Part shown: positions 3,051 through 41,493 of the stretch, piece by piece | Position numbering within the stretch: the first letter of the stretch is position 1 | Layout of the letters: every line of letters begins with the position of its first letter | Assembly: GCA_021734745.1 (NCBI GenBank) | Contig: JAIPIK010000001.1 | Span: forward strand, 1-64,000 | Direction of reading: 5' to 3' | DNA: 64,000 bases | Origin: Candidatus Altimarinota bacterium | GTDB lineage: Bacteria > Patescibacteriota > Minisyncoccia > Phycocordibacterales > UBA5272 | Position numbers and translations under genes: made by a program | Notes under the pieces: generated by a model | What the model saw: only the letters and a program-made list of their open reading frames with translations | The model's database searches: none | What the model was told of the DNA's origin: nothing

Positions 3051-4256
3051 ATGCAATTTCTAATGAAAAATAAAATACAAGGTCTAATAATTTTCATTAT
3101 TACTGGCCTCATTGTTTTTGTAGGATATAACTCGTATTTAAGATCAACATCAAAACCAATAGTAATAGAGAAAGAATTGCTTTCAAAAGTGGAAGATAAA
3201 ACGTATGAAAGTATAGTCCTTGCAGGCGGGTGTTTTTGGTGCACTGAAAGTGAGTATAATCACGTCGAGGGAGTAATATCGGCTATATCAGGTTATGCAG
3301 ACACGGAAAATTTATATAAAGTTGGAAGTGGGCCTAGTTATAAAGAAGTTAGTAGTGGTGAAGTAATTGCAAGAGAAGCAGTGCAAGTTATTTATGATTC
3401 AAAAGTAATTCCTATAACTAAAATATTAGAAATCTATTTTAGACATATAAATCCGACTGATGATGGCGGGCAGTTTGCAGATAGAGGATATCAATATTCT
3501 CCTGCAATATATTACACGACAACGGAACAATATAATTTATCAAAAGATATAATAAATAAAATAAATATTAGCCATAAATTTTCTTTACCAGTTGTGGTAG
3601 AGGTTATGCCATTTAGCAATTTTTATCCAGCAGAAGAGTATCACCAGGATTACAAAGATAAAAATCAAGTAAGGTATAATATATACCGTGAAGCTAGCGG
3701 TAGGAATTCATATATTAGATCTAACTGGCTAGAGAACGATGTTTTTATTAAAGAAATTTTTGGAGCTAAAAACAACAATATGAACAATAAAGAAAATGAG
3801 TCACAACCTTGGAACTTGTTCACAGAGGAGATTAAAAAAGAGCAATTAAAAAAATTAACCCCATTACAGTATGCTGTAACTCAAAAAGATGGAACAGAAA
3901 AGGCATTTTTAAATGAATATGACACTAATAAAGCAGAAGGTATTTATGTAGATATTGTTAGTGGAGAACCACTATATTCTTCGAAAGATAAATATGATTC
4001 AGGTACTGGGTGGCCGAGTTTTGTAAAACCAATTGATGATTCATACTTAAAGCTAGTTATAGATAAAGGTATATTTTCAACCCGTACAGAAGTTAGGAGT
4101 GTTATTGCTGATTCACATTTAGGTCATGTATTTCCGGATGGGCCAATAGATAGAGGTGGTAAAAGATATTGTATGAATAGTGCCGCATTACGTTTTGTTC
4201 CGTTAGAAAATATGGAGAAAGAAGGATATGGAGAGTTTGTTAATAAAGTAAAATAA
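3051..4256 (+). CDS. msrAB: membrane-anchored MsrA-MsrB methionine sulfoxide reductase fusion
   Basis: Repairs both epimers of oxidised methionine in proteins. Residues ~10-28 are a membrane anchor, so the enzyme probably faces outside. The MsrA domain (~55-225) has the catalytic GGCFWCTE motif and the Tyr/Glu pattern YHQDY. The MsrB domain (~265-395) has GTGWPSF, HLGHVF and the catalytic Cys in [12 protein letters not shown]. The two zinc CxxC pairs of many MsrB proteins are absent ([11 protein letters not shown]), and the usual resolving Cys position reads RTEVRS. The ATG at 3051 lies 8 bases after a TATACT -10 box; ATG 3063 is the alternative. The electron donor could be the thioredoxin-reductase-like system at 6486. 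Confidence 0.93.
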
Positions 4257-4704: not shown

Positions 4705-5976
4705 ATGTTTTCAAAATTCAAAAGTTATTGGGCAAAAATTGGTCCAGGAGTAGTGACAGGTGCAGCTGATGATGATCCATCAGGTATTGCTACTTATTCC
4801 CAAACTGGCGCCCAGTACGGATTGTCATTCCTGTGGACTGCAATTTTTACATTACCTTTTATGGTAACGGTTCAGGAAATGTGTGCGAGACTCGGCATAG
4901 TAACAGGTAAAGGTCTAGCTAATAATATACGTACACATTGCCCGTCCTATATTCTATACATATCAACTATATGTCTTATTATTGCTAATACTTTTAATAT
5001 AGGAGCTGATATTAGTGCGATAGGTGAGGCTGTTCAGTTACTTTTCCCTACATTATCAATTGTGTATATAGTGATTATATTCACATTGTTTAGTTTGTTG
5101 CTGCAAATTCTTGTTCCTTATCAAAAATACGCAAGATATCTTAAGTACCTTTCATTTACACTTATTGCTTATATAATAGCAGGGTTAACCGCTGGTCTTA
5201 TTTGGAAAGATTTATTTTTCGCGGTTGCTATTCCTAGTTTTGAGTTTAATAAAGAATCAGCACTACTTATTTGTGCCATATTAGGTACCACTATAAGCCC
5301 GTATTTATTTTTCTGGCAAACTTCCCAAGAAGTTGAAGAAAAAATAGCACGCAGAAAAGGAATTAAATTTGTTGGTTCAGAAATTAGTGAAAACGATAGT
5401 AATAGAGCTATAAGTGGTATGCGTTTTGATGTTTGGACAGGTATGTTCTTTTCTAACCTAACGATGTTCTTCATCATAGCACTTTGCGGAACAGTATTAT
5501 TCCCAAACGGTGTAAGAGATATAGAAACAGCGGCCCAAGCGGCCCAAGCGCTGTTACCTTTTGCAGGAAATGCGACATATATTTTATTCACATTAGGTAT
5601 AGTTGGAACTGGATTGTTAGCTGTTCCTATTCTTGCTGGATCTAGTGCATATGCCATAGCAGAAACATTTAGATTTAAAGAGGGTTTATATCATAAGTAT
5701 AGAGAAGCTAAGGCCTTTTACGGTATAATTGTTTTTTCTATGTTAATTGGACTAGGTATTACCTTCATCGGTATTCCTCCTATGAAAGCATTGATATATT
5801 CCGCTATTTTAAATGGAATCATGGCACCATTTTTACTTATGGTTATTGTTTACCTATCAAGTAAAGAGAGTATTATGGGTAAATGGAAGAATACAAAATC
5901 TCAATCATTTTTGGGTTGGACTATTACAGGCATTATGACTATGGCTAGTGTGACAGCGGTATGGTTCCTTATATAG
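4705..5976 (+). CDS. Nramp-family divalent metal transporter (divergent clade)
   Basis: A 423-residue integral membrane protein with about 11 helices. Helix 1 has GAADDDPSGIATYSQTGAQ, the Nramp DPxx metal-binding signature in the DPSG form; helix 6 has GTTISPYLFFWQ in place of the canonical MPHN motif, which marks the Nramp-related (COG1914) group and not classical MntH. The substrate may be Mn, Fe or Mg. A TATACT box (4679-4684) lies 20 bases before the ATG. It sits beside msrAB and the MerT-like gene, suggesting a metal/oxidative stress cluster. Confidence 0.85.
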   Translation: MFSKFKSYWAKIGPGVVTGAADDDPSGIATYSQTGAQYGLSFLWTAIFTLPFMVTVQEMCARLGIVTGKGLANNIRTHCPSYILYISTICLIIANTFNIGADISAIGEAVQLLFPTLSIVYIVIIFTLFSLLLQILVPYQKYARYLKYLSFTLIAYIIAGLTAGLIWKDLFFAVAIPSFEFNKESALLICAILGTTISPYLFFWQTSQEVEEKIARRKGIKFVGSEISENDSNRAISGMRFDVWTGMFFSNLTMFFIIALCGTVLFPNGVRDIETAAQAAQALLPFAGNATYILFTLGIVGTGLLAVPILAGSSAYAIAETFRFKEGLYHKYREAKAFYGIIVFSMLIGLGITFIGIPPMKALIYSAILNGIMAPFLLMVIVYLSSKESIMGKWKNTKSQSFLGWTITGIMTMASVTAVWFLI

Positions 5977-29501: not shown

Positions 29502-29571
29502 CAGTTGTCCCCAAACGTCCTTGCAAAGTCACTGTGTCGAGGTATACTTAAGTGATAATAACAATATATAT

Positions 29572-29970
29572 ATGAAAAAGGCTTTATCTTTAATTTCGTT
29601 AGTAGTTGGTAGTGTAATGATTTCTTCTGCGCAAACAATTAATATCGGTACAACTGCATCAGTTGGACAGGTCAACGGTGGTCCAATTCTTCAGCTTTTA
29701 GCTCTTGCACAAACAATTGTTTCAAGATTGGTTCCATTTGCAGTTGGGGTTGCTGTTATTGCATTCTTTTGGTATTTAATTAAATTTATTATGCAAGGGG
29801 GTGAAAGTGGTGAGCAGAAGAGTGTTTCTCTTAAAGGTATGGGTTATTCTATACTTGCAATCTTCGTAATGGTTTCTATTTGGGGGATTATCGGTGCATT
29901 AGGTGGAATGTTAGGTGTTGGCCAAGGTGGGTCTGTTCCAATTCCAGGTGTTCCAGTTCCAACAAATTAA
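29572..29970 (+). CDS. VirB2-like pilin (class A)
   Basis: 132 residues: signal peptide (~1-21, ending SSA-Q), then LLALAQTIVSRLVPF leading into two membrane helices around the loop MQGGESGEQKSVSLKG, and a short Pro-rich tail. Very similar to the genes at 30055 and 32372. The frame opens at 29521 but the ATG at 29572 places the signal peptide properly, after a TATACT at ~29544. Probably a filament or T4SS-type subunit. Confidence 0.78.
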   Translation: MKKALSLISLVVGSVMISSAQTINIGTTASVGQVNGGPILQLLALAQTIVSRLVPFAVGVAVIAFFWYLIKFIMQGGESGEQKSVSLKGMGYSILAIFVMVSIWGIIGALGGMLGVGQGGSVPIPGVPVPTN

Positions 29971-30054
29971 TCAATATATATTAGAAAAAATCTCACACAA
30001 AGTGAGATTTTTTCTTTGCAAAGGCAAGAAATACTATTATACTTAAAATAATAT

Positions 30055-30516
30055 ATGAAAAAAATAATAATCAGTACATTTCTTATAATCGTTAGTAGTA
30101 GTATGTTTGCTGCGGCACAGTTAAATGTTGGTGGAACAATAGGAGGCGTTCCCGTTAGTGTTAGTACTGGAAATGGTGGAGTTATAAATATTGGTAGTGG
30201 TGCACAAGGTATGATGGGTGCTGGTGGAAGTCCAATTCTTAGACTACTTGGTCTTGCACAGACAGTAGTTTCAAGATTGGTACCATTTATGATTGGTGTT
30301 GCTGTGATAGCTTTCTTCTGGTTCCTTATTCAATATATTTGGAAAGGTGATGAAAGTGCAGGAAAACGTCAGGAAGGACTAAAAGGAATGGGGTATTCAC
30401 TACTTGCACTTTTTGTTATGGTTTCTGTATGGGGAATAATTGCTGTAATGTCATCTATTCTTGGTGTTGGTGTAGGCGGAGGGCTACCGCCACTTGAGAT
30501 GCCGGCAATGAAATAA
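30055..30516 (+). CDS. VirB2-like pilin (class A)
   Basis: 153 residues: signal peptide (~1-22), a Gly-rich segment (~25-60), then LLGLAQTVVSRLVPFMIG and two membrane helices separated by WKGDESAGKRQEGLKGMGYS. Class A features match the genes at 29572 and 32372. TATACT (30038-30043) precedes the ATG by 11 bases; a terminator-like hairpin lies just upstream (~29984-30014, AAAAAATCTCAC/GTGAGATTTTTT). Confidence 0.78.
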   Translation: MKKIIISTFLIIVSSSMFAAAQLNVGGTIGGVPVSVSTGNGGVINIGSGAQGMMGAGGSPILRLLGLAQTVVSRLVPFMIGVAVIAFFWFLIQYIWKGDESAGKRQEGLKGMGYSLLALFVMVSVWGIIAVMSSILGVGVGGGLPPLEMPAMK

Positions 30517-30548
30517 TTATTTTACTAACTTAATTTATACTTATTTAT

Positions 30549-30800
30549 ATGGAAAAGAATGCTGATGTTATTTTAGATAAAATAGTTACTGAAATTTTCA
30601 CCCCGTTATATCAATTGGTTGCAGCTATTGCGCTCCTATACTTTCTTTATGGTGTGGCAAAGTTTATTTATGATGCTAGGAATCCAACTGACAAAAATAC
30701 AGGCAAGCAGCATTTGTTATGGGGAATGGTTGGGTTATTTATTATATTGTCTGTAGGTGGAGTGCTTAGTCTTTTCGGGAGTGTTTTCGGAGAACTGTAG
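30549..30800 (+). CDS. short VirB2-like two-helix protein (class C)
   Basis: 83 residues without a signal peptide: two membrane helices (~20-40 and ~58-78) around KFIYDARNPTDKNTGKQH. It keeps the helix-loop-helix plan of its neighbours but lacks leader and tail. TATACT (30536-30541) ends 7 bases before the ATG. Confidence 0.72.
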   Translation: MEKNADVILDKIVTEIFTPLYQLVAAIALLYFLYGVAKFIYDARNPTDKNTGKQHLLWGMVGLFIILSVGGVLSLFGSVFGEL

Positions 30801-30893
30801 ACTAGTCAGGGGCTTACTTATATTTAGTTCTGATTGTTTAATCTAAAGTTTGATATGCATTACTGCTTGTAACATGTGATATAATCATAAAAT

Positions 30894-32312
30894 ATGAGTA
30901 CAGATGATTCACAATCACGAATGGAAGCAATCGTATCCCTTTGCAAGCGAAGGGGATTTATTTTCCCATCTTCCGAAATTTACGGTGGCTTTTCAGGTGT
31001 TTATGATTATGGACATTATGGAACACTTCTTATAAATAATGTGAAGCAAGCTTGGCAAAAAAACATAGCACAAGAACGTCTTGATGTTGTGTTGCTCGAT
31101 AGTGCTATTTTTATGCATCCAACTGCATGGAAAGCATCAGGTCACGTTGATGGATTCAATGACCCACAAATTGATTGCAAGAAATGTAAGGCACGTTTCC
31201 GAGCAGACCATCTACTTGAAAGTTTTGGTATTAATGCAGACAAACAACCTCTTGAGTTTATTAATCAAGAGTTAGATAAATTACGTGGAGAGAAGAAACT
31301 AGTTTGTGCTTCATGTGGTAGTGCGGACGTTACAGAAGCGAAAGTGTTCTCACTTATGGTGAAGTCCAATCTTGGTTCGCCAACTGATGCGTTAACTGAA
31401 GAGAATGTAGTGTATCTCAGACCTGAAACATGTGGAGGTATTTATTTGGAATACAAAAATACAATTGATTCACTTCACCCAAAACTTCCATTTGGTATTG
31501 CGCAGATTGGTAAAGCTTTTCGAAATGAAATAGTTGCAAAGCAATTCGTTTTTCGTACAAGAGAGTTTGAGCAAATGGAGATGCAATATTTTCATCATTC
31601 ATCACAGACAAAGGAATTGTTTGAACAGTGGCATAAAGACAGATGGGCATTTTATTTAGAATATGGAATTCCTGAGGAGAAATTGAAATGGTATAAACAT
31701 GAAAAGTTGGCCCATTATGCCAGTGAGGCATATGATATAGAATATAACTATGCGATGCTTGGTGGTTTTAAGGAAATGGAAGGAGTTCATGCGAGAGGGG
31801 ATTTTGATTTGACTCAACATGCAAAGTTTTCAGGAACTGATTTATCATATTTTGATGAAGCAACAAAAGAAAGATTCGTTCCACATATTGTTGAAACATC
31901 AGTAGGTGTTGCCCGTATGACATTAGCATTCATTGATAATGCATATACAGAAGAAGTATTACCCGCAACCAAAGAAGGAGAGAGTGGCGAAACAAGAGTT
32001 GTTCTAAAATTCGATAAGCGTTTAGCCCCAATAAAAGTCGCTGTGCTACCACTTTCAAAAAAAGAAGAACTTTCAGTTCCTGCAAAGGAAATTTGGAAAA
32101 CATTATCCAAAAAAATGTTCGTAGAGTATGATGATACTCAATCAATCGGCAAAAGATATCGTAGACAGGATGAAATTGGCACACCATACTGCGTAACAGT
32201 TGATTTCGATACTTTGACCGACAATGCAGTAACTGTGCGTGATAGAGACACTATGGAACAGGTGCGTATTCCCGTTGTTGAGCTTACGTCTTATTTCGAT
32301 AGCTTGTTTTAA
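30894..32312 (+). CDS. glyS: glycyl-tRNA synthetase (alpha2 dimeric type)
   Basis: 472 residues, class II. RRGFIFPSSEIYGGFSGVYDYG at the N-terminus, motif 2 region IGKAFRNEI, motif 3 SVGVARMTLAF, and the anticodon domain from ~375. CxxC pairs (CKKCKARF and CASCG) form a zinc site. This is the single-chain archaeal/eukaryote-like form, not the alpha2-beta2 form. TATAAT (30880-30885) ends 8 bases before the ATG. It interrupts the pilin-like cluster. Confidence 0.95.
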   Translation: MSTDDSQSRMEAIVSLCKRRGFIFPSSEIYGGFSGVYDYGHYGTLLINNVKQAWQKNIAQERLDVVLLDSAIFMHPTAWKASGHVDGFNDPQIDCKKCKARFRADHLLESFGINADKQPLEFINQELDKLRGEKKLVCASCGSADVTEAKVFSLMVKSNLGSPTDALTEENVVYLRPETCGGIYLEYKNTIDSLHPKLPFGIAQIGKAFRNEIVAKQFVFRTREFEQMEMQYFHHSSQTKELFEQWHKDRWAFYLEYGIPEEKLKWYKHEKLAHYASEAYDIEYNYAMLGGFKEMEGVHARGDFDLTQHAKFSGTDLSYFDEATKERFVPHIVETSVGVARMTLAFIDNAYTEEVLPATKEGESGETRVVLKFDKRLAPIKVAVLPLSKKEELSVPAKEIWKTLSKKMFVEYDDTQSIGKRYRRQDEIGTPYCVTVDFDTLTDNAVTVRDRDTMEQVRIPVVELTSYFDSLF

Positions 32313-32371
32313 TATTATGTTTATTAAATCTGTACTTTAGTTTATACTGGTTAAATAATAACAATATAATT

Positions 32372-32752
32372 ATGAAAACTTTTTCACTATCAGCTTTGTT
32401 TTTTGTTGGCACATTTACTAGCGTTTTTGCACAACAAGGTCAAGTAAATGGTTCTTGGTTGCTTTCTATTATTAATTTAGCTCAGACCGTTGTTAACAGT
32501 TTGTCTCCAATATTAATTACAGTTGCACTTCTAGCTTTTTTCTGGTTTCTTATTCAATTCATTTGGAAAGGAGGAGAAAGTCCAAGTGCGCATGCAAATG
32601 GTATGAAAGGTATGGGATACTCAATACTTGCACTTTTTGTTATGGTTTCTATTTGGGGCATTATTCAAGTTTTGCAGAATATATTTGGTGTACCAACAAT
32701 TACTAACCAGCCGGACGTACCAACTCTCCCACCAAGTATGAGAAATCAGTAG
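32372..32752 (+). CDS. VirB2-like pilin (class A)
   Basis: 126 residues: signal peptide (~1-20, ending FAQ), then IINLAQTVVNSLSPILITV and two membrane helices around WKGGESPSAHANGMKGMGYS, with a Pro-rich tail. Class A like 29572 and 30055; separated from them by the short gene at 30549 and glyS. Confidence 0.78.
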   Translation: MKTFSLSALFFVGTFTSVFAQQGQVNGSWLLSIINLAQTVVNSLSPILITVALLAFFWFLIQFIWKGGESPSAHANGMKGMGYSILALFVMVSIWGIIQVLQNIFGVPTITNQPDVPTLPPSMRNQ

Positions 32753-32800: not shown

Positions 32801-32962
32801 ATGTCAAAAGCACAAGACCGTCTCATACAGTTAAAGAATAAGGAAACAGGCGAAGTATACTGGACTTCTAAGAATAAGAAGCTTGTTACTCGTAAAATCG
32901 AACTTAAGAAGTATTCAAAGAAACTTCGTAAGCATATTACTTTCAAGGAAACTAAGAAGTAA
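32801..32962 (+). CDS. rpmG: 50S ribosomal protein bL33 (zinc-free form)
   Basis: A 53-residue basic protein: MSKAQDRLIQLKNKETGEVY, then WTSKNKKLVTRKIELKKY and SKKLRKHITFKETKK. It matches bL33 in length and pattern but has no cysteines, so it is the C-minus form that does not bind zinc. TAGAAT (32786-32791) ends 9 bases before the ATG. Confidence 0.85.
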   Translation: MSKAQDRLIQLKNKETGEVYWTSKNKKLVTRKIELKKYSKKLRKHITFKETKK

Positions 32963-33030: not shown

Positions 33031-33039
33031 TGTTAGAAT
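33031..33039 (+). promoter_or_regulatory. extended -10 promoter of the L1-stalk/tRNA-Trp transcript
   Basis: TGTTAGAAT: an extended TG motif plus TAGAAT (33034-33039). The predicted start of transcription is at ~33046, where the stalk helix begins. Confidence 0.55.
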
Positions 33040-33046
33040 AGTCTTT

Positions 33047-33162
33047 GTCGAGATAGACTGTGATGATGTGTAGGATAAGGCTGAGGCTGTGAAGTGTTGT
33101 CGCTAGATGACATGGAGCCACCCTTGAAATAGGCCTCTTTATCGAAGTCTTTCTATCTTGAC
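33047..33162 (+). ncRNA. free-standing copy of the 23S rRNA L1-stalk region
   Basis: About 85 bases (33060-33145) align closely with E. coli 23S rRNA around helices 76-78, the uL1-binding stalk. They share GATGTGTAGGATA, TGAAGTGT, CATGGAGCC and CCTTGAAATA. The helices are kept by compensatory changes: H76 is AGGCT/GGCCT here against GGUGG/CCACC, and H78 is TGTTGTC/GATGACA around loop GCTA. The element is closed by its own 10-bp helix (33047-33056 with 33153-33162) plus ACT/AGT. No other rRNA sequence is nearby. tRNA-Trp begins 6 bases later and is probably cotranscribed, so processing of the tRNA 5' end would release this ~115-nt RNA. Function unknown: uL1 decoy, regulator, or remnant. Confidence 0.82.
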
Positions 33163-33168
33163 TTCTTT

Positions 33169-33242
33169 GGGCCTATAGTTTAGTGGCAGAACAACGGCCT
33201 CCAAATCCGTTGGTCGAGGTTCGATTCCTCGTGGGCCCGCCA
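33169..33242 (+). tRNA. tRNA-Trp(CCA), CCA end encoded
   Basis: Acceptor GGGCCTA (33169-33175) pairs with TGGGCCC (33232-33238, one G-T pair); discriminator G, then encoded CCA at 33240-33242. Anticodon loop CTCCAAA gives CCA (reads UGG). T arm CGAGGTTCGATTCCTCG is perfect. The last anticodon-stem pair is C-T, a mismatch. Confidence 0.95.
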
Positions 33243-33245
33243 AGT

Positions 33246-33286
33246 CGTTTAGGTTCTGGTGCTCGATGAGCTTAGAAAACTAAACG
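33246..33286 (+). ncRNA. 3' hairpin of the stalk/tRNA-Trp transcript
   Basis: CGTTTAG (33246-33252) with CTAAACG (33280-33286), enclosing GCTC-GAT-GAGC (33261-33271). It lies between tRNA-Trp and the terminator and may protect or guide processing of the 3' side. Confidence 0.45.
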
Positions 33287-33295
33287 AAGAAAGAA

Positions 33296-33332
33296 AACAT
33301 AAAAACTACTCGGACGGAGTAGTTTTTATGTT
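33296..33332 (+). terminator. intrinsic terminator of the RNA operon
   Basis: 16-bp arms 33296-33311 and 33317-33332, loop GGACG, T-rich end. Confidence 0.9.
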
Positions 33333-33379
33333 TTACTTATCTTCAAAAAAACTCCTAAAAATGGTATTATATTAAAATA

Positions 33380-35947
33380 ATGAAAAAAGAAGCTTCAGCT
33401 AGAATAAAGATAAATAAACTCTTAGAAGAATCTGGCTGGAGATTTGAGAGTGATAGTAACGGCCTTTTAAATATAGAACTAGAGCCTGGTGTAATTCTTT
33501 CTGAAATGGGAGATGACTTCGAGAATGTTTCCAAAGGATATATTGATTTTCTACTTCTAGATGTAGATGGAAGACCTCTTGTTGTTGTGGAGGCAAAAAA
33601 AGAGTCAATTGATCCACTTTCAGCAAAAGAACAAGCACGAAATTATGCTCGTAATGTAAATGCTCGTTTCGTAATTCTTTCTAATGGTAATCTTCATTAT
33701 TTCTGGGACACCAAGCATGGTAATCCTGATACTATCTCTCGTTTTCCAACGCAAGATTCTATAACACAATACGAAAAGTACACTCCAAATCCTCAAGAAT
33801 TAGGTAATACAAATGTAGATGAAAACTACATTGTAGAATCACAAATGCCATCATATGCAAATGATCCTGATTTTCAAGACGAATCAAAACGTCAAGATTT
33901 TTTGCGTAACAATAATCTTAAACAGATGCGACCGTATCAAATAGCGTCAATAAAAGCATTGCAGTCAGCCGCTCTTGAGAATAAGAATAGATTTCTTTTT
34001 GAAATGGCAACAGGAACTGGGAAGACTCTTACATCTTCTGCTGTAATAAAGCTATTTCTAAAGTCAGGTAATGCACGACGTGTGTTATTCCTCGTTGATC
34101 GACTTGAACTTGAAGATCAGGCTCATAAAGCCTTCAAGCAATATCTAGGAAAAGATTATACAACTGTTATTTATAAAGACAGTCCTGATTCATGGAGAAA
34201 TGCACAGATTGTTGTTTCCACTATTCAAACATTCATGTCTGGAGATAGATATAAGAAAGAATTTTCACCAACTGATTTCGAGCTTGTTATTTCAGATGAA
34301 GCACATCGCTCTATTGGTGGTAATAGTCGTGCAGTGTTTGAGTATTTTGTTGGTTATAAGTTAGGGCTAACAGCAACACCAAAAGATTATTTGAGAGGGT
34401 TCGACGGAGAGGGTGCAGATACACAACGAGAATTTGAGCGTAGACAATTGCTTGATACATACAAAACATTTGGATGTGAACCAAGCAAACCAACATTTAG
34501 TTATGACTTACTTTCAGGGGTGAAAGATGGTTTCCTTATTAATCCTGTTGTAGTAGATGCTCGTACAGAGATTACCACTGGATTACTTTCAACAGATGGT
34601 TACGCAGTCCATTCTACGACAGTAGAAGGAGAAACAATTAACGAAGTATTTAATGAACGTCACTATGAGAAGAAATTCTTTAATGAAGAAACAAATATTG
34701 CTATGTGTAAGGCTTTTTTGGATAACGGATTCTATGATCCTATTGCCAAGAAATATGGTGTAGATCTTTTTGGTAAATCTATTATTTTCTGTGTATCACA
34801 AAAGCATGCATCTCGTGTTACAAACATCTTAAACAAGTTAGCTTTTGAAAAATGGCCACAGCAATATAATGAGTCAGATTTTGCAGTCCAAGTCACATCA
34901 CTTGTTGCAAGTGCTCAACAAATGACCATCAACTTTTCTAATAATATGCTTAATGGAAAAGTAAAAAGACCTCAAGGATATGATTCTAGTAAAACTCGTG
35001 TAGCAGTTACTGTTGGAATGATGACAACCGGATATGACTGTCAGGATATTCTTAACCTCGCTCTCATGCGACCAGTATTTAGTCCTTCAGAATTCGTGCA
35101 GATGAAAGGAAGAGGAACACGAAAGTATCGATTTGAATATACAGATTACAATAATCAAGAAACAGTAGTAGAGCTAAAAGAACATTTTAAATTCTTTGAT
35201 TTCTTTGCTACGTGTGAATATTTTGAAAATGAGTTCAAATATGACGAAAAAATAAAGTTACCAAAAATACAGAAGATAACAGAAGTAGACGCTACAACAG
35301 GACAACCTACTACAGATAGTTCACAAGGTGAATTCGTAGATGAGAATGGTGTGAAGATTTTCAAGGGTCCTATAGACTTAGCAACACAAGATGATATTAC
35401 ATCTGTGAAAGAATCACATGTTGGACAAGAAGGAATGCGTATAGATCGTGAAGGGTTTAGGCGTGCTGTAGAAGAGGATATTTTGACCAACGAAACATTG
35501 AAGAGTATGTGGAATAATGGAGATGTTGCAGGAGCAGAAGATTATACTAAGACAAATATTTTCGATAAGCCGAATCACTTCCTTAATCTGCAAGGAATAC
35601 GAAAAGCATTTAATGTTGATCGTCGTATAACTGTTCGTGAATTTTTACAGGTAGCTTTCGGACAAAAGGATGGGTTTGAATCTAAGGATGAATTACTTGA
35701 ATCAGAATGGAACAAGTTCACAGAAATAAATCCTGTAGATCAAGAACATTATGCACCAGTAAAGAGTTTCTTCAAGGCATATATTGTTGATCCTCAAGTA
35801 CGTGAGATTATAGATACCAAACAACTTGCACAACTCCACTTTTGTCCATCATTTGATTTCGAGGAGTACGAGCAATTAAATGGTTTCAAGGCAATGGTTC
35901 CCACATATATCAAGGACTACGTATCGCTTAATACTTTTATGAATTAA
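33380..35947 (+). CDS. hsdR: type I restriction enzyme, HsdR subunit
   Basis: 855 residues. The N-terminal PD-(D/E)xK nuclease has YIDFLLLDVDGRPLVVVEAKK; the SF2 translocase has Walker A MATGTGKTLTSS (~212), SDEAHRS (~310) and GRGTRKYR (~575); the C-terminal ~200 residues are the helical complex-binding part. It cuts unmodified DNA after translocation. TATTAT ends 9 bases before the ATG. The fused HsdM-HsdS gene follows by 4 bases. It begins just after the tRNA-Trp operon. Confidence 0.95.
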   Translation: MKKEASARIKINKLLEESGWRFESDSNGLLNIELEPGVILSEMGDDFENVSKGYIDFLLLDVDGRPLVVVEAKKESIDPLSAKEQARNYARNVNARFVILSNGNLHYFWDTKHGNPDTISRFPTQDSITQYEKYTPNPQELGNTNVDENYIVESQMPSYANDPDFQDESKRQDFLRNNNLKQMRPYQIASIKALQSAALENKNRFLFEMATGTGKTLTSSAVIKLFLKSGNARRVLFLVDRLELEDQAHKAFKQYLGKDYTTVIYKDSPDSWRNAQIVVSTIQTFMSGDRYKKEFSPTDFELVISDEAHRSIGGNSRAVFEYFVGYKLGLTATPKDYLRGFDGEGADTQREFERRQLLDTYKTFGCEPSKPTFSYDLLSGVKDGFLINPVVVDARTEITTGLLSTDGYAVHSTTVEGETINEVFNERHYEKKFFNEETNIAMCKAFLDNGFYDPIAKKYGVDLFGKSIIFCVSQKHASRVTNILNKLAFEKWPQQYNESDFAVQVTSLVASAQQMTINFSNNMLNGKVKRPQGYDSSKTRVAVTVGMMTTGYDCQDILNLALMRPVFSPSEFVQMKGRGTRKYRFEYTDYNNQETVVELKEHFKFFDFFATCEYFENEFKYDEKIKLPKIQKITEVDATTGQPTTDSSQGEFVDENGVKIFKGPIDLATQDDITSVKESHVGQEGMRIDREGFRRAVEEDILTNETLKSMWNNGDVAGAEDYTKTNIFDKPNHFLNLQGIRKAFNVDRRITVREFLQVAFGQKDGFESKDELLESEWNKFTEINPVDQEHYAPVKSFFKAYIVDPQVREIIDTKQLAQLHFCPSFDFEEYEQLNGFKAMVPTYIKDYVSLNTFMN

Positions 35948-35951
35948 CATT

Positions 35952-38432
35952 ATGAATGCAGAAACAAAACGCCACATAGATGCAGCTCGCCAAGTGCTTG
36001 TAGGGGTAGTGCCGAATCCAGCATCACAAATAGACCAAATCACTAATGCTCTTATTTATAAGTTCATGGATGATATGGATCAATCAGCTATCAAGCAAGG
36101 TGGTGAGCCATCGTTCTTTACTGGTGACCTCAAGGACTATGCGTGGACTCGTCTTATGGATACTCGTATAGGGAATCAAGAGCGAATGAATATATATAGT
36201 GAAGCCCTTGTGAAGTTCTCTGAGTCCAAGCAATTGCCACAGCTATTTCGTGAGATTTTTAAATCTGCATTCTTGCCATATCGTAGCCCTGAAGTATTAG
36301 GGTTATTCTTAAAAGAAATAGACTACTTCGACTACTCTCATCCTGAAGAGCTTGGGAATGCTTACGAATACCTTTTGTCTATTATGTCCTCACAAGGAGA
36401 TGCGGGTCAGTTCCGTACACCACGACATATTATTGACTTCATTGTTAATATTATTAACCCTACAGCTGAAGATAAAGTGTTAGACCCTGCATGTGGCACT
36501 GGAGGTTTCTTAGTAAGTGCTTATAAACATATTGCGGAACAACACGATGGAAAGAATTCTGATGGATCAAAAAATAAAGAGAAACCACTAACGCCTGACC
36601 AGCGTAAGAATCTAATGAGTAACTTTGAAGGATATGATATAGACCCTGGAATGGTACGTATAGCACAAGTGAATATGTATCTGCATCAGTTCAAGAACCC
36701 AAAGATTTATAACTATGATTCTCTTTCTATGGATGAAAGGTGGAATGATAAGTTTGATGTAATACTGGCTAATCCTCCTTTTATGTCACCAAAAGGCGGA
36801 GTGAGTACTCATAATAAGTTCAGTATTAACGCTACTCGGTCCGAAGTATTGTTCGTGGACTACATCATGAACCATCTTAAACCAAAAGGTAAAGCAGGTA
36901 TTATCGTACCTGAAGGAATTATTTTCCAGTCTGGTACATCACACAAGCAATTACGAAAGAATCTTGTTAATGATGGGTTGTATGCTGTTGTTAGTTTACC
37001 AGCAGGAGTGTTTCAGCCATACAGTGGAGTAAAAACTAGTATCTTGCTTTTTAATAACGAGCTTGCAAAACAGAGTAAAGAAATTTTGTTTGTAAAAGTA
37101 GAGAATGATGGTTTTGGTCTTGGTGCTCAAAGAAGAACATCTACTAAGAATGACCTACCAGAAGTATTAGAGATTTTGAATAAGTGGAATAGTAACAAAA
37201 AGGTAGAAAATGTAAATGTTCTATATGTAGAAAAGACAAAAATTGCAGAAACAGATGACTATAACCTTTCTGGTGACCGATATCGTACAGCGATTGATTA
37301 CTCTAATGTCAAATGGTCAATGGTTTCATTGGGTGATGTTTGTGACTTACATAGGGGTGTTGTTTATTCAAAATCAGACGAAGTACTCAGTGATGGTTAT
37401 GGAATACTGCGCGCAAACAATATTTCATTAGATAGTGGTTTAATTTTGGATGATGTTAAATTAATTTCAAAAAATCTTAAACTGAAAGAGGTCCAAAAAT
37501 TTAAGGCAGGCGATATTTTCATTTGTCTTGCCAGTGGCAGCAAAGATCATATAGGGAAAGTAGCATATATCAAAGAAGATACTGATTTTTATTTTGGGGG
37601 CTTTATGGGAGCAGTAAGAATTAAAAATGGGACAATCGATTCCCGGTTCCTTTTTTCTTTGCTTAAAGATCAAAAATTCAATGATTTTTTGCGTCAAGAA
37701 ATTAGTGGTGCAAACATAAATAATCTTAATTCTGGCATTCTTTCTAGATACAAAATCCCTCTTCCTCCTCTTGATGTCCAAGAGAAAATTGTTGCTGAAA
37801 TAGATAGTTACCAAAATATCATCACTGGTGCCAAGCAAATCACCAACAACTGGAAGCCTTTAATTGATATTGACCCAACATGGGAAAAAGTAAAATTGGG
37901 TACTGTGTGTGGATATGCTGGAGGGACTCAACCACCAAAATCAACATTTGTAGATAATCCCAAAGAGGGTTATGTTAGATTGCTCCAGATTAGAGATTAT
38001 AAGTCAGACAAAAATGCTACATATATTTCTACTTCTGTGCGTCATAAAACCTGTAATGAAAACGATATAATGATTGGTAGATATGGTCCACCAGTTTTTC
38101 AAATTTTGCGTGGTAAAGCCGGGGCCTATAATGTAGCACTAATGAAGTGTCTACCTGATAACAGTAAAATTACTAATGACTGGTTATATTATTTCCTAGT
38201 ATCTGACTCCGTTCAGGAGAAAATAATTTCCTTATCAGGTAGGGTCAGACAGTCAGGTGTAAATCCTGCGGATTTAGATGAGTTAGTAATTCCTCTTCCT
38301 GTTCTTGAAATTCAAAAACAAATAGTAGAACGTGTAAAAGTTGAGCATTCTCTTGTAGAAGGTAATAATAAATTAGTCGAAATCTACGAACAAAAAATAA
38401 GAGAAACCTTAGCAAAACTTTGGGAACAATAA
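35952..38432 (+). CDS. hsdM: fused HsdM-HsdS type I modification/specificity protein
   Basis: 826 residues joining two normally separate subunits. Residues ~1-440 are the N6-adenine methylase: a helical HsdM N-domain, SAM motif DPACGTGGFLVSAY (~178) and catalytic NPPF (~273). From ~452 come two target-recognition domains, each opening in S-subunit style (KWSMVSLGDVCDLHRG and TWEKVKLGTVCGYAGG at ~642) and ending in a coiled coil (PPLDVQEKIVAEID, PVLEIQKQIVERV). With HsdR at 33380 it forms a complete type I system in two genes. The recognition sequence cannot be read from the TRDs. Confidence 0.93.
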   Translation: MNAETKRHIDAARQVLVGVVPNPASQIDQITNALIYKFMDDMDQSAIKQGGEPSFFTGDLKDYAWTRLMDTRIGNQERMNIYSEALVKFSESKQLPQLFREIFKSAFLPYRSPEVLGLFLKEIDYFDYSHPEELGNAYEYLLSIMSSQGDAGQFRTPRHIIDFIVNIINPTAEDKVLDPACGTGGFLVSAYKHIAEQHDGKNSDGSKNKEKPLTPDQRKNLMSNFEGYDIDPGMVRIAQVNMYLHQFKNPKIYNYDSLSMDERWNDKFDVILANPPFMSPKGGVSTHNKFSINATRSEVLFVDYIMNHLKPKGKAGIIVPEGIIFQSGTSHKQLRKNLVNDGLYAVVSLPAGVFQPYSGVKTSILLFNNELAKQSKEILFVKVENDGFGLGAQRRTSTKNDLPEVLEILNKWNSNKKVENVNVLYVEKTKIAETDDYNLSGDRYRTAIDYSNVKWSMVSLGDVCDLHRGVVYSKSDEVLSDGYGILRANNISLDSGLILDDVKLISKNLKLKEVQKFKAGDIFICLASGSKDHIGKVAYIKEDTDFYFGGFMGAVRIKNGTIDSRFLFSLLKDQKFNDFLRQEISGANINNLNSGILSRYKIPLPPLDVQEKIVAEIDSYQNIITGAKQITNNWKPLIDIDPTWEKVKLGTVCGYAGGTQPPKSTFVDNPKEGYVRLLQIRDYKSDKNATYISTSVRHKTCNENDIMIGRYGPPVFQILRGKAGAYNVALMKCLPDNSKITNDWLYYFLVSDSVQEKIISLSGRVRQSGVNPADLDELVIPLPVLEIQKQIVERVKVEHSLVEGNNKLVEIYEQKIRETLAKLWEQ

Positions 38433-41266: not shown

Positions 41267-41493
41267 ATTAATACAACTTGTATTAAGAAGAACAATTCAA
41301 TAGTAACCTAACCCTTTAGCTCCTAGAACTAAAGATATGGTGAAGAAAGTCCTATCAGAGTAAAAACCCCATCATGTGGGCTTTGCTCTGATAGGCCATA
41401 TCTGGAAACGGATATGAAGGTCGCAAGACCTTACTCACGTGGTGGGATTTTTGCTACCCAACGAGAGATTACTAAGTCCTATCAGACAATTTT
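41267..41493 (+). ncRNA. structured leader RNA with mutually exclusive stems
   Basis: A 227-base leader without a gene. It folds into several hairpins: GATATGG (41334-41340)/CCATATC (41396-41402), then CCTATCAGAG (41351-41360)/CTCTGATAGG (41386-41395) capped by CCCA/TGGG, a perfect AAGGTC-GCAA-GACCTT tetraloop hairpin (41417-41432) and GGTGG/CTACC (41441-41458). The 13-mer AAGTCCTATCAGA occurs at 41347 and again at 41474, 7 bases before the ATG, so the 41386-41395 strand can pair with either copy. CATATC/GATATG (41397-41416) is a further alternative. This is the layout of a switch controlling the downstream gene. No Rfam class recognised. Confidence 0.65.

Follow-up and report, generated by a model that had tools for sequence, protein, structure and literature searches.

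Free-standing copies of the 23S rRNA L1-stalk head in Patescibacteria and large tailed phages form a candidate RNA family

The closest described relative of the RNA reported here is the L1 stalk of the 23S rRNA itself (H76-H78, part of Rfam RF02541), a mobile arm of the ribosome, with which it shares a 72-nt ungapped core, helices, loops and invariant residues, and from which it differs by standing outside any rRNA gene, with its own closing helix and its own promoter and terminator or tRNA. A non-rRNA RNA resembling the uL1 site is also known from the mRNA leaders that mediate autogenous repression of rplK-rplA (PMC10931766); however, those leaders are short irregular stem-loops with a bulge, whereas the present element comprises the whole stalk head including H78, has no rplK or rplA downstream and resides in a genome without uL1. 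The L1 stalk stacks on the tRNA elbow with the same elbow-docking module of interdigitated T-loops as RNase P and the T-box (PMC4810234), but the stalk RNA is derived from rRNA and has no catalytic core, specifier or antiterminator. Phages, finally, carry pieces of the translation machinery, such as tRNA arrays and ribosomal proteins, often near tRNA clusters, and the jumbo cyanophage PhiMa05 encodes uL1 (PMC13157829); here, in contrast, an rRNA domain is carried as RNA, without uL1. Our literature search found no description of a free-standing stalk RNA. To our knowledge, the RNAs so far known to mimic rRNA act in cis, as leaders of mRNAs for ribosomal proteins. Judged by sequence comparison, the L1-stalk head (H76-H78) with its own closing helix appears to be an undescribed RNA family of Patescibacteria and large tailed phages.

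The window analyzed here, a 64,000-nt stretch, is contig C10 of G000, a 960-kb, 97% complete Patescibacteria-like bin. In blastn, positions 33047-33162 matched the E. coli 23S rRNA with 76-78% identity (E 1e-6 to 1e-7), and the stalk-head core at 33067-33138 on the plus strand aligned to about 2109-2180 of E. coli over 72 nt without a gap, the numbering being calibrated on G2112, A2169, G2141 and G2148 as named in PMC5309774. The stalk homology outside rRNA, which an earlier note had claimed from the letters of this DNA, is thus real; the extent given there, E. coli 2095-2185, was slightly wide. The core has the same helices, loops and invariant residues as the 23S stalk, with H76 at 33078-33082/33132-33136, H77 at 33085-33088/33116-33119 and H78 at 33094-33101/33106-33113. 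The minimum-free-energy fold encloses the core in a closing helix of its own, in which the 5' strand (33047-33059) pairs with 33146-33150 and 33155-33162 of the 3' strand (33146-33162), giving 8 + 5 bp with a 4-nt bulge in place of the 10 bp first suggested; inside it, six further pairs lead up to the core, and the element folds with z = -2.7 against shuffles. The statement that no other rRNA is nearby is borne out, as Rfam at gathering thresholds reported only two tRNAs and a LOOT RNA in the window, and this search together with a flank test found the 23S flanks (H75/H79 and other domains) absent around the element. Among the curated Rfam families, the LSU rRNA around 2131-2210 alone matched the stalks.

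The element lies in a putative transcription unit. Its upstream neighbor is rpmG (bL33; open reading frame at 32801-32962, plus strand), as found by tblastn and intergenic comparison also in G010, G009, G016, G004 and G014. An extended -10 box, TGTTAGAAT, was recognized by eye at 33031-33039 (plus strand), with an expected RNA start at about 33047. A simple promoter scan did not call this box, so the promoter of the earlier note is upheld only in that most members of the genus that have no element carry this box ahead of their tRNA-Trp as well, and for that reason an RNA start near 33047 is likely. As had been noted, tRNA-Trp (CCA anticodon; 33169-33242, plus strand) follows 6 nt after the element, and the terminator scan placed a bidirectional intrinsic terminator with an 18-bp stem behind it (33294-33334, plus strand); rplK/rplA or another uL1-regulated ribosomal-protein gene is not found downstream, where tRNA-Trp and the terminator stand instead. 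Transcription would make the stalk RNA the 5' leader of tRNA-Trp, from which RNase P, cutting at 33168/33169, would free an RNA of about 120 nt with a paired 5' end.

The bin contains two 23S genes, one on C9 and one on C26. The C9 gene (L003) has large CPR-type inserts and a diverged stalk in which H76-H78 are retained, whereas the C26 gene (L002, L017) belongs to an operon of the order 16S-tRNA-Ile-tRNA-Ala-23S-5S-5S, has a canonical stalk unlike the C9 type and may sit on a foreign contig. The inserts of L003 are long and intron-like (about 3330-4060 and 5130-5890), as reported for CPR. In G147, too, a canonical 23S is found, on the 4-kb contig G147:C6. A blastn search of the bin with the element found no match but the element itself, which differs in sequence from both 23S genes. 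A recent copy of the cell's own 23S confined to one genome, an origin that the earlier note had considered, is ruled out, as the own stalks bear a different signature and relatives carry the element. Its proposal that a stalk is supplied in trans is not supported either: the own 23S keeps H76-H78, diverged, which makes such a supply unnecessary. That the element serves stalk-less ribosomes, or that it is an artefact of assembly or contamination, seems extremely improbable to us; the foreign-looking second rRNA operon in the bin would fit it, but the presence of H76-H78 in the own 23S, the synteny of the contig with G010 and the dissimilarity of the element to both 23S genes speak against it.

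This lineage is one without uL1, as the earlier note had mentioned of some CPR lineages. No match to uL1 (PF00687) was found in G000, and none over the cut-off in the 397 genomes of the order, while 14 of 14 control genomes were positive; this agrees with the report that Paceibacteria keep H78 but are without rplA and der (PMC12641178), a combination that makes a canonical stalk outside the ribosome a testable puzzle. The uL1 decoy or sensor that the earlier note had also offered is therefore unsupported as far as its target would be a uL1 made by this cell.

In G010, of the same genus, a homologous but strongly diverged element occupies the same rpmG/tRNA-Trp gap, beside an rpmG that is 89% identical, and a homologue in the same locus excludes an assembly artefact. 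It has an insertion in the H78 arm, GGGA/UCCC in H76 and, in the same place, a new closing helix that is longer, perfect and of different sequence. The distribution in the genus is patchy, as expected for a dispensable or decaying element: a clear element is present in 2 of 16 genomes and an eroded hairpin fills the gap in a third (G009), while in most of the remaining members whose leader could be read the promoter box is immediately followed by tRNA-Trp. Taken together, the element appears to have been present in the genus for long enough to diverge and has often been lost, with its pairing kept in G010. It is quite unlikely, in our estimation, that it is a decaying relic, i.e., a once-useful stalk fragment captured from a phage gene or before the loss of uL1 and now drifting in the genus. 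The loss in most of the genus, the eroded hairpin of G009 and the H78-arm insertion of G010 are what a relic would show; however, the window copy has every canonical signature position, and the window and G010 differ by compensatory pairs, including the new perfect closing helix. The remnant first suggested as one possible role is thus matched by the erosion and loss in relatives, but not by the compensatory changes in G010 and in the phage copies.

The position of the element raises another possibility, namely that the stalk fold acts in cis and aids only the transcription, 5' processing or folding of tRNA-Trp. Indeed, in both genus members the element is placed exactly between promoter and tRNA, with a spacing of 2-6 nt to the latter. 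We nevertheless regard a purely cis-acting leader as very unlikely, as stalks with no tRNA behind them occur in G338, L061, L070, L074 and L075, the closing helices differ greatly in length, an argument against docking on the neighboring tRNA, and most relatives have no element at all.

Free-standing stalks were found in four more Patescibacteria, G010 as well as G338, G129 and G562. A DNA search of the 397 order genomes yielded the stalk of G338 (Ca. Yonathbacteria RIFCSPLOWO2_01_FULL_47_33b; L004), which is flanked by rpmA (bL27) on one side and a strong terminator on the other, away from any rRNA. A covariance model (R1) built from the window and G338 stalks scored these two at 107 and 105 bits; those matches in the order listed at 49-70 bits that were checked are all 23S stalks except the one in G129 (55.6 bits), which has no 23S flank, and second matches of the model in other genomes are mostly 23S pieces by the flank test. 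The stalk of G562, from the wider phylum, lies between typA and a DEAD-box helicase gene. A scan of genome contigs gave a convincing stalk on the G338 contig only, the other matches failing the covariance model, and a pattern search of the 397 genomes for a stalk before tRNA-Trp returned only the window, the matched stretches of the five others being without a stalk. A tRNA T-arm-like sequence stands just upstream of the stalk both in G129 (L189, G129:C15, 150-200) and in G562 (L182, G562:C1, reverse strand 380-290); neither ARAGORN nor Rfam called a tRNA there, and in these two genomes a longer tRNA-like RNA may include the stalk as one of its domains.

When IMG/VR was scanned with sequence patterns, many large contigs proved to carry a free-standing stalk: L050/L051 (413 and 410 kb), L053, L057, L054, L055, L060, L061, L084 and L087, and further L052, L066/L071, L070, L074, L075, L083/L085 and L141/L142/L144. 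After near-identical or orthologous records were merged, these represent at least 12 uncultivated tailed-phage lineages, and seven of the phage records searched with PHROGs carry terminase, tail sheath, baseplate, DNA polymerase or SSB. About 45 nt separate the stalk from a following tRNA-Arg in L050, L051, L053 and L057, so that the tandem arrangement with a tRNA is shared by the window, G010 and four phage loci; other phage stalks have tRNAs at a distance of less than 1 kb, and for some no tRNA is nearby. uL1 is encoded in 0 of 18 phage records, most of which are fragments. Among cultured phages blastn found no relatives, only 23S contaminants or tRNAs, and the viral matches L059, L067 and L049 were rejected as true 23S contaminants. 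The stalks are not part of GOLLD, ROOL or another Rfam RNA, none of which matched. In some phages the stalk may be a domain of a longer RNA. In L052 and L087 the similarity continues downstream for about 33 nt beyond the core, which suggests a longer conserved phage RNA. In a phage related to L066/L071 by its tRNA cluster, the stalk (L148:5003-5111, minus strand) is altered in its 3' half (15.8 bits) and is a decaying or rebuilt copy. L058 (IMGVR 3300000032_000059, 1-200) has a stalk at the contig end, after a near-perfect long hairpin that is not 23S, and may be a free-standing copy or a chimera.

The compensatory changes that the earlier note had seen in the helices are confirmed across the copies. 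In a plain MAFFT alignment of 17 free-standing copies, standard pairs fill 88% of the pair cells, both partners have changed in 20 of 22 base pairs, and covariation scores 0.753 compared with 0.217 for shuffled and at most 0.163 for slid controls; the free-standing copies have H76 in many versions, while the canonical 23S genes of this comparison mostly have GGUGG/CCACC. Part of the covariation among distant copies could be inherited from different donor 23S genes, and for this reason the comparisons within a locus matter: the window and G010 differ by paired changes at H76 (core 12 and 15), at H78 (29 and 31) and throughout the closing helix, and the orthologous phage loci L050 and L053, with homologous flanks, exchange GGUGG/CCACC for GGCGA/UCGCC. 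The structurally maintained RNA family is real. Its donor lineage is not resolved by identity from 72 nt.

Which ligand the stalk RNA might bind was approached by comparing positions among 10 canonical stalks (including L058, at a contig end), 27 from the order that lacks uL1 and the free-standing ones. At positions 2111, 2116, 2144, 2145, 2147, 2165 and 2166, the canonical nucleotide stands in 15-17 of 17 free-standing copies, whereas the 23S of the order deviates from it; the CPR copies match the canonical and not their own 23S signature. We treat this signature with caution as a set of uL1 determinants, since T. thermophilus, which has uL1, differs at most of these positions; its sequence would leave G2116 as the only clean uL1 marker among them. 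G2112-A2169, the pair that stacks on the tRNA elbow (PMC5309774), is kept in the 23S of the order and in the window. Among 21 free-standing copies, 2112/2169 is G-A in 14, U-A in 3, A-G in 3 and G-G in 1, i.e., the tRNA platform is changed to U-A or A-G in 6 of 21, and A2112 is found exclusively together with G2169 (Fisher p = 0.003, with phylogeny ignored). uL1-type and tRNA-platform positions are both largely kept, and as the whole head is preserved, the sequence by itself does not choose between uL1 and tRNA.

We propose that the element, presumably transcribed here as the leader of tRNA-Trp, serves as a portable stalk head and binds one of the stalk's natural ligands in trans, a reading that we hold in about even balance with all others; binding in trans is probable in view of the whole head being kept. 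Two ligands come into question: First, in phages the stalk RNA would bind host uL1 as a sponge, relieving uL1 autorepression or withholding uL1, an appealing role given that uL1 represses by binding RNA (PMC10931766). Second, in cells without uL1, including this one, the ligand would most likely be deacylated tRNA, whose elbow is the well-known ligand left to the stalk in such a lineage. G010, which has lost G2116, an S7 contact in the P/E state (PMC5309774), and kept G2112, G2168 and A2169, fits a tRNA-elbow ligand. It is also conceivable that the CPR copies were acquired from phages as uL1 sponges and act, if at all, on a uL1 not their own, that of a superinfecting phage or of a host cell. 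The phage copies retain G2116 and the canonical H78 loop, the CPR copies bear the canonical and not the own-23S signature, and uL1 is known to repress its own synthesis through mRNA sites that resemble its site on the rRNA (PMC10931766); but the CPR order has no uL1, and the structure of G010 is kept despite the loss of G2116. G2116 is, moreover, presumably the one clean marker that T. thermophilus leaves to this explanation, which we consider unlikely.

The portable stalk head would fit a mobile class of rRNA-domain RNA, in which a gene for a detachable L1-stalk head provides phages and some epibiotic bacteria with a decoy for uL1, for E-site tRNAs or for both, a generalization that we offer tentatively, as slightly less than evenly balanced. 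This goes beyond the first reading of the window alone, as the stalk family is common to CPR and phages. A separate gene for an rRNA domain, structurally selected in both, would be a new way to act on translation. The stalk RNA would also provide a compact natural RNA for dissecting stalk-uL1 and stalk-tRNA binding, and a handle on ribosome function without uL1.

The surroundings of the unit hold further features. Type I restriction-modification genes (HsdR-like and HsdM/S-like, 33380-38432) come directly after its terminator, several short paralogous membrane proteins that look pilin- or VirB2-like surround a glycyl-tRNA synthetase gene at 29521-32752, and the LOOT RNA, a curated Rfam sRNA family (RF03000), lies at 41305-41432 on the plus strand with 86.5 bits.
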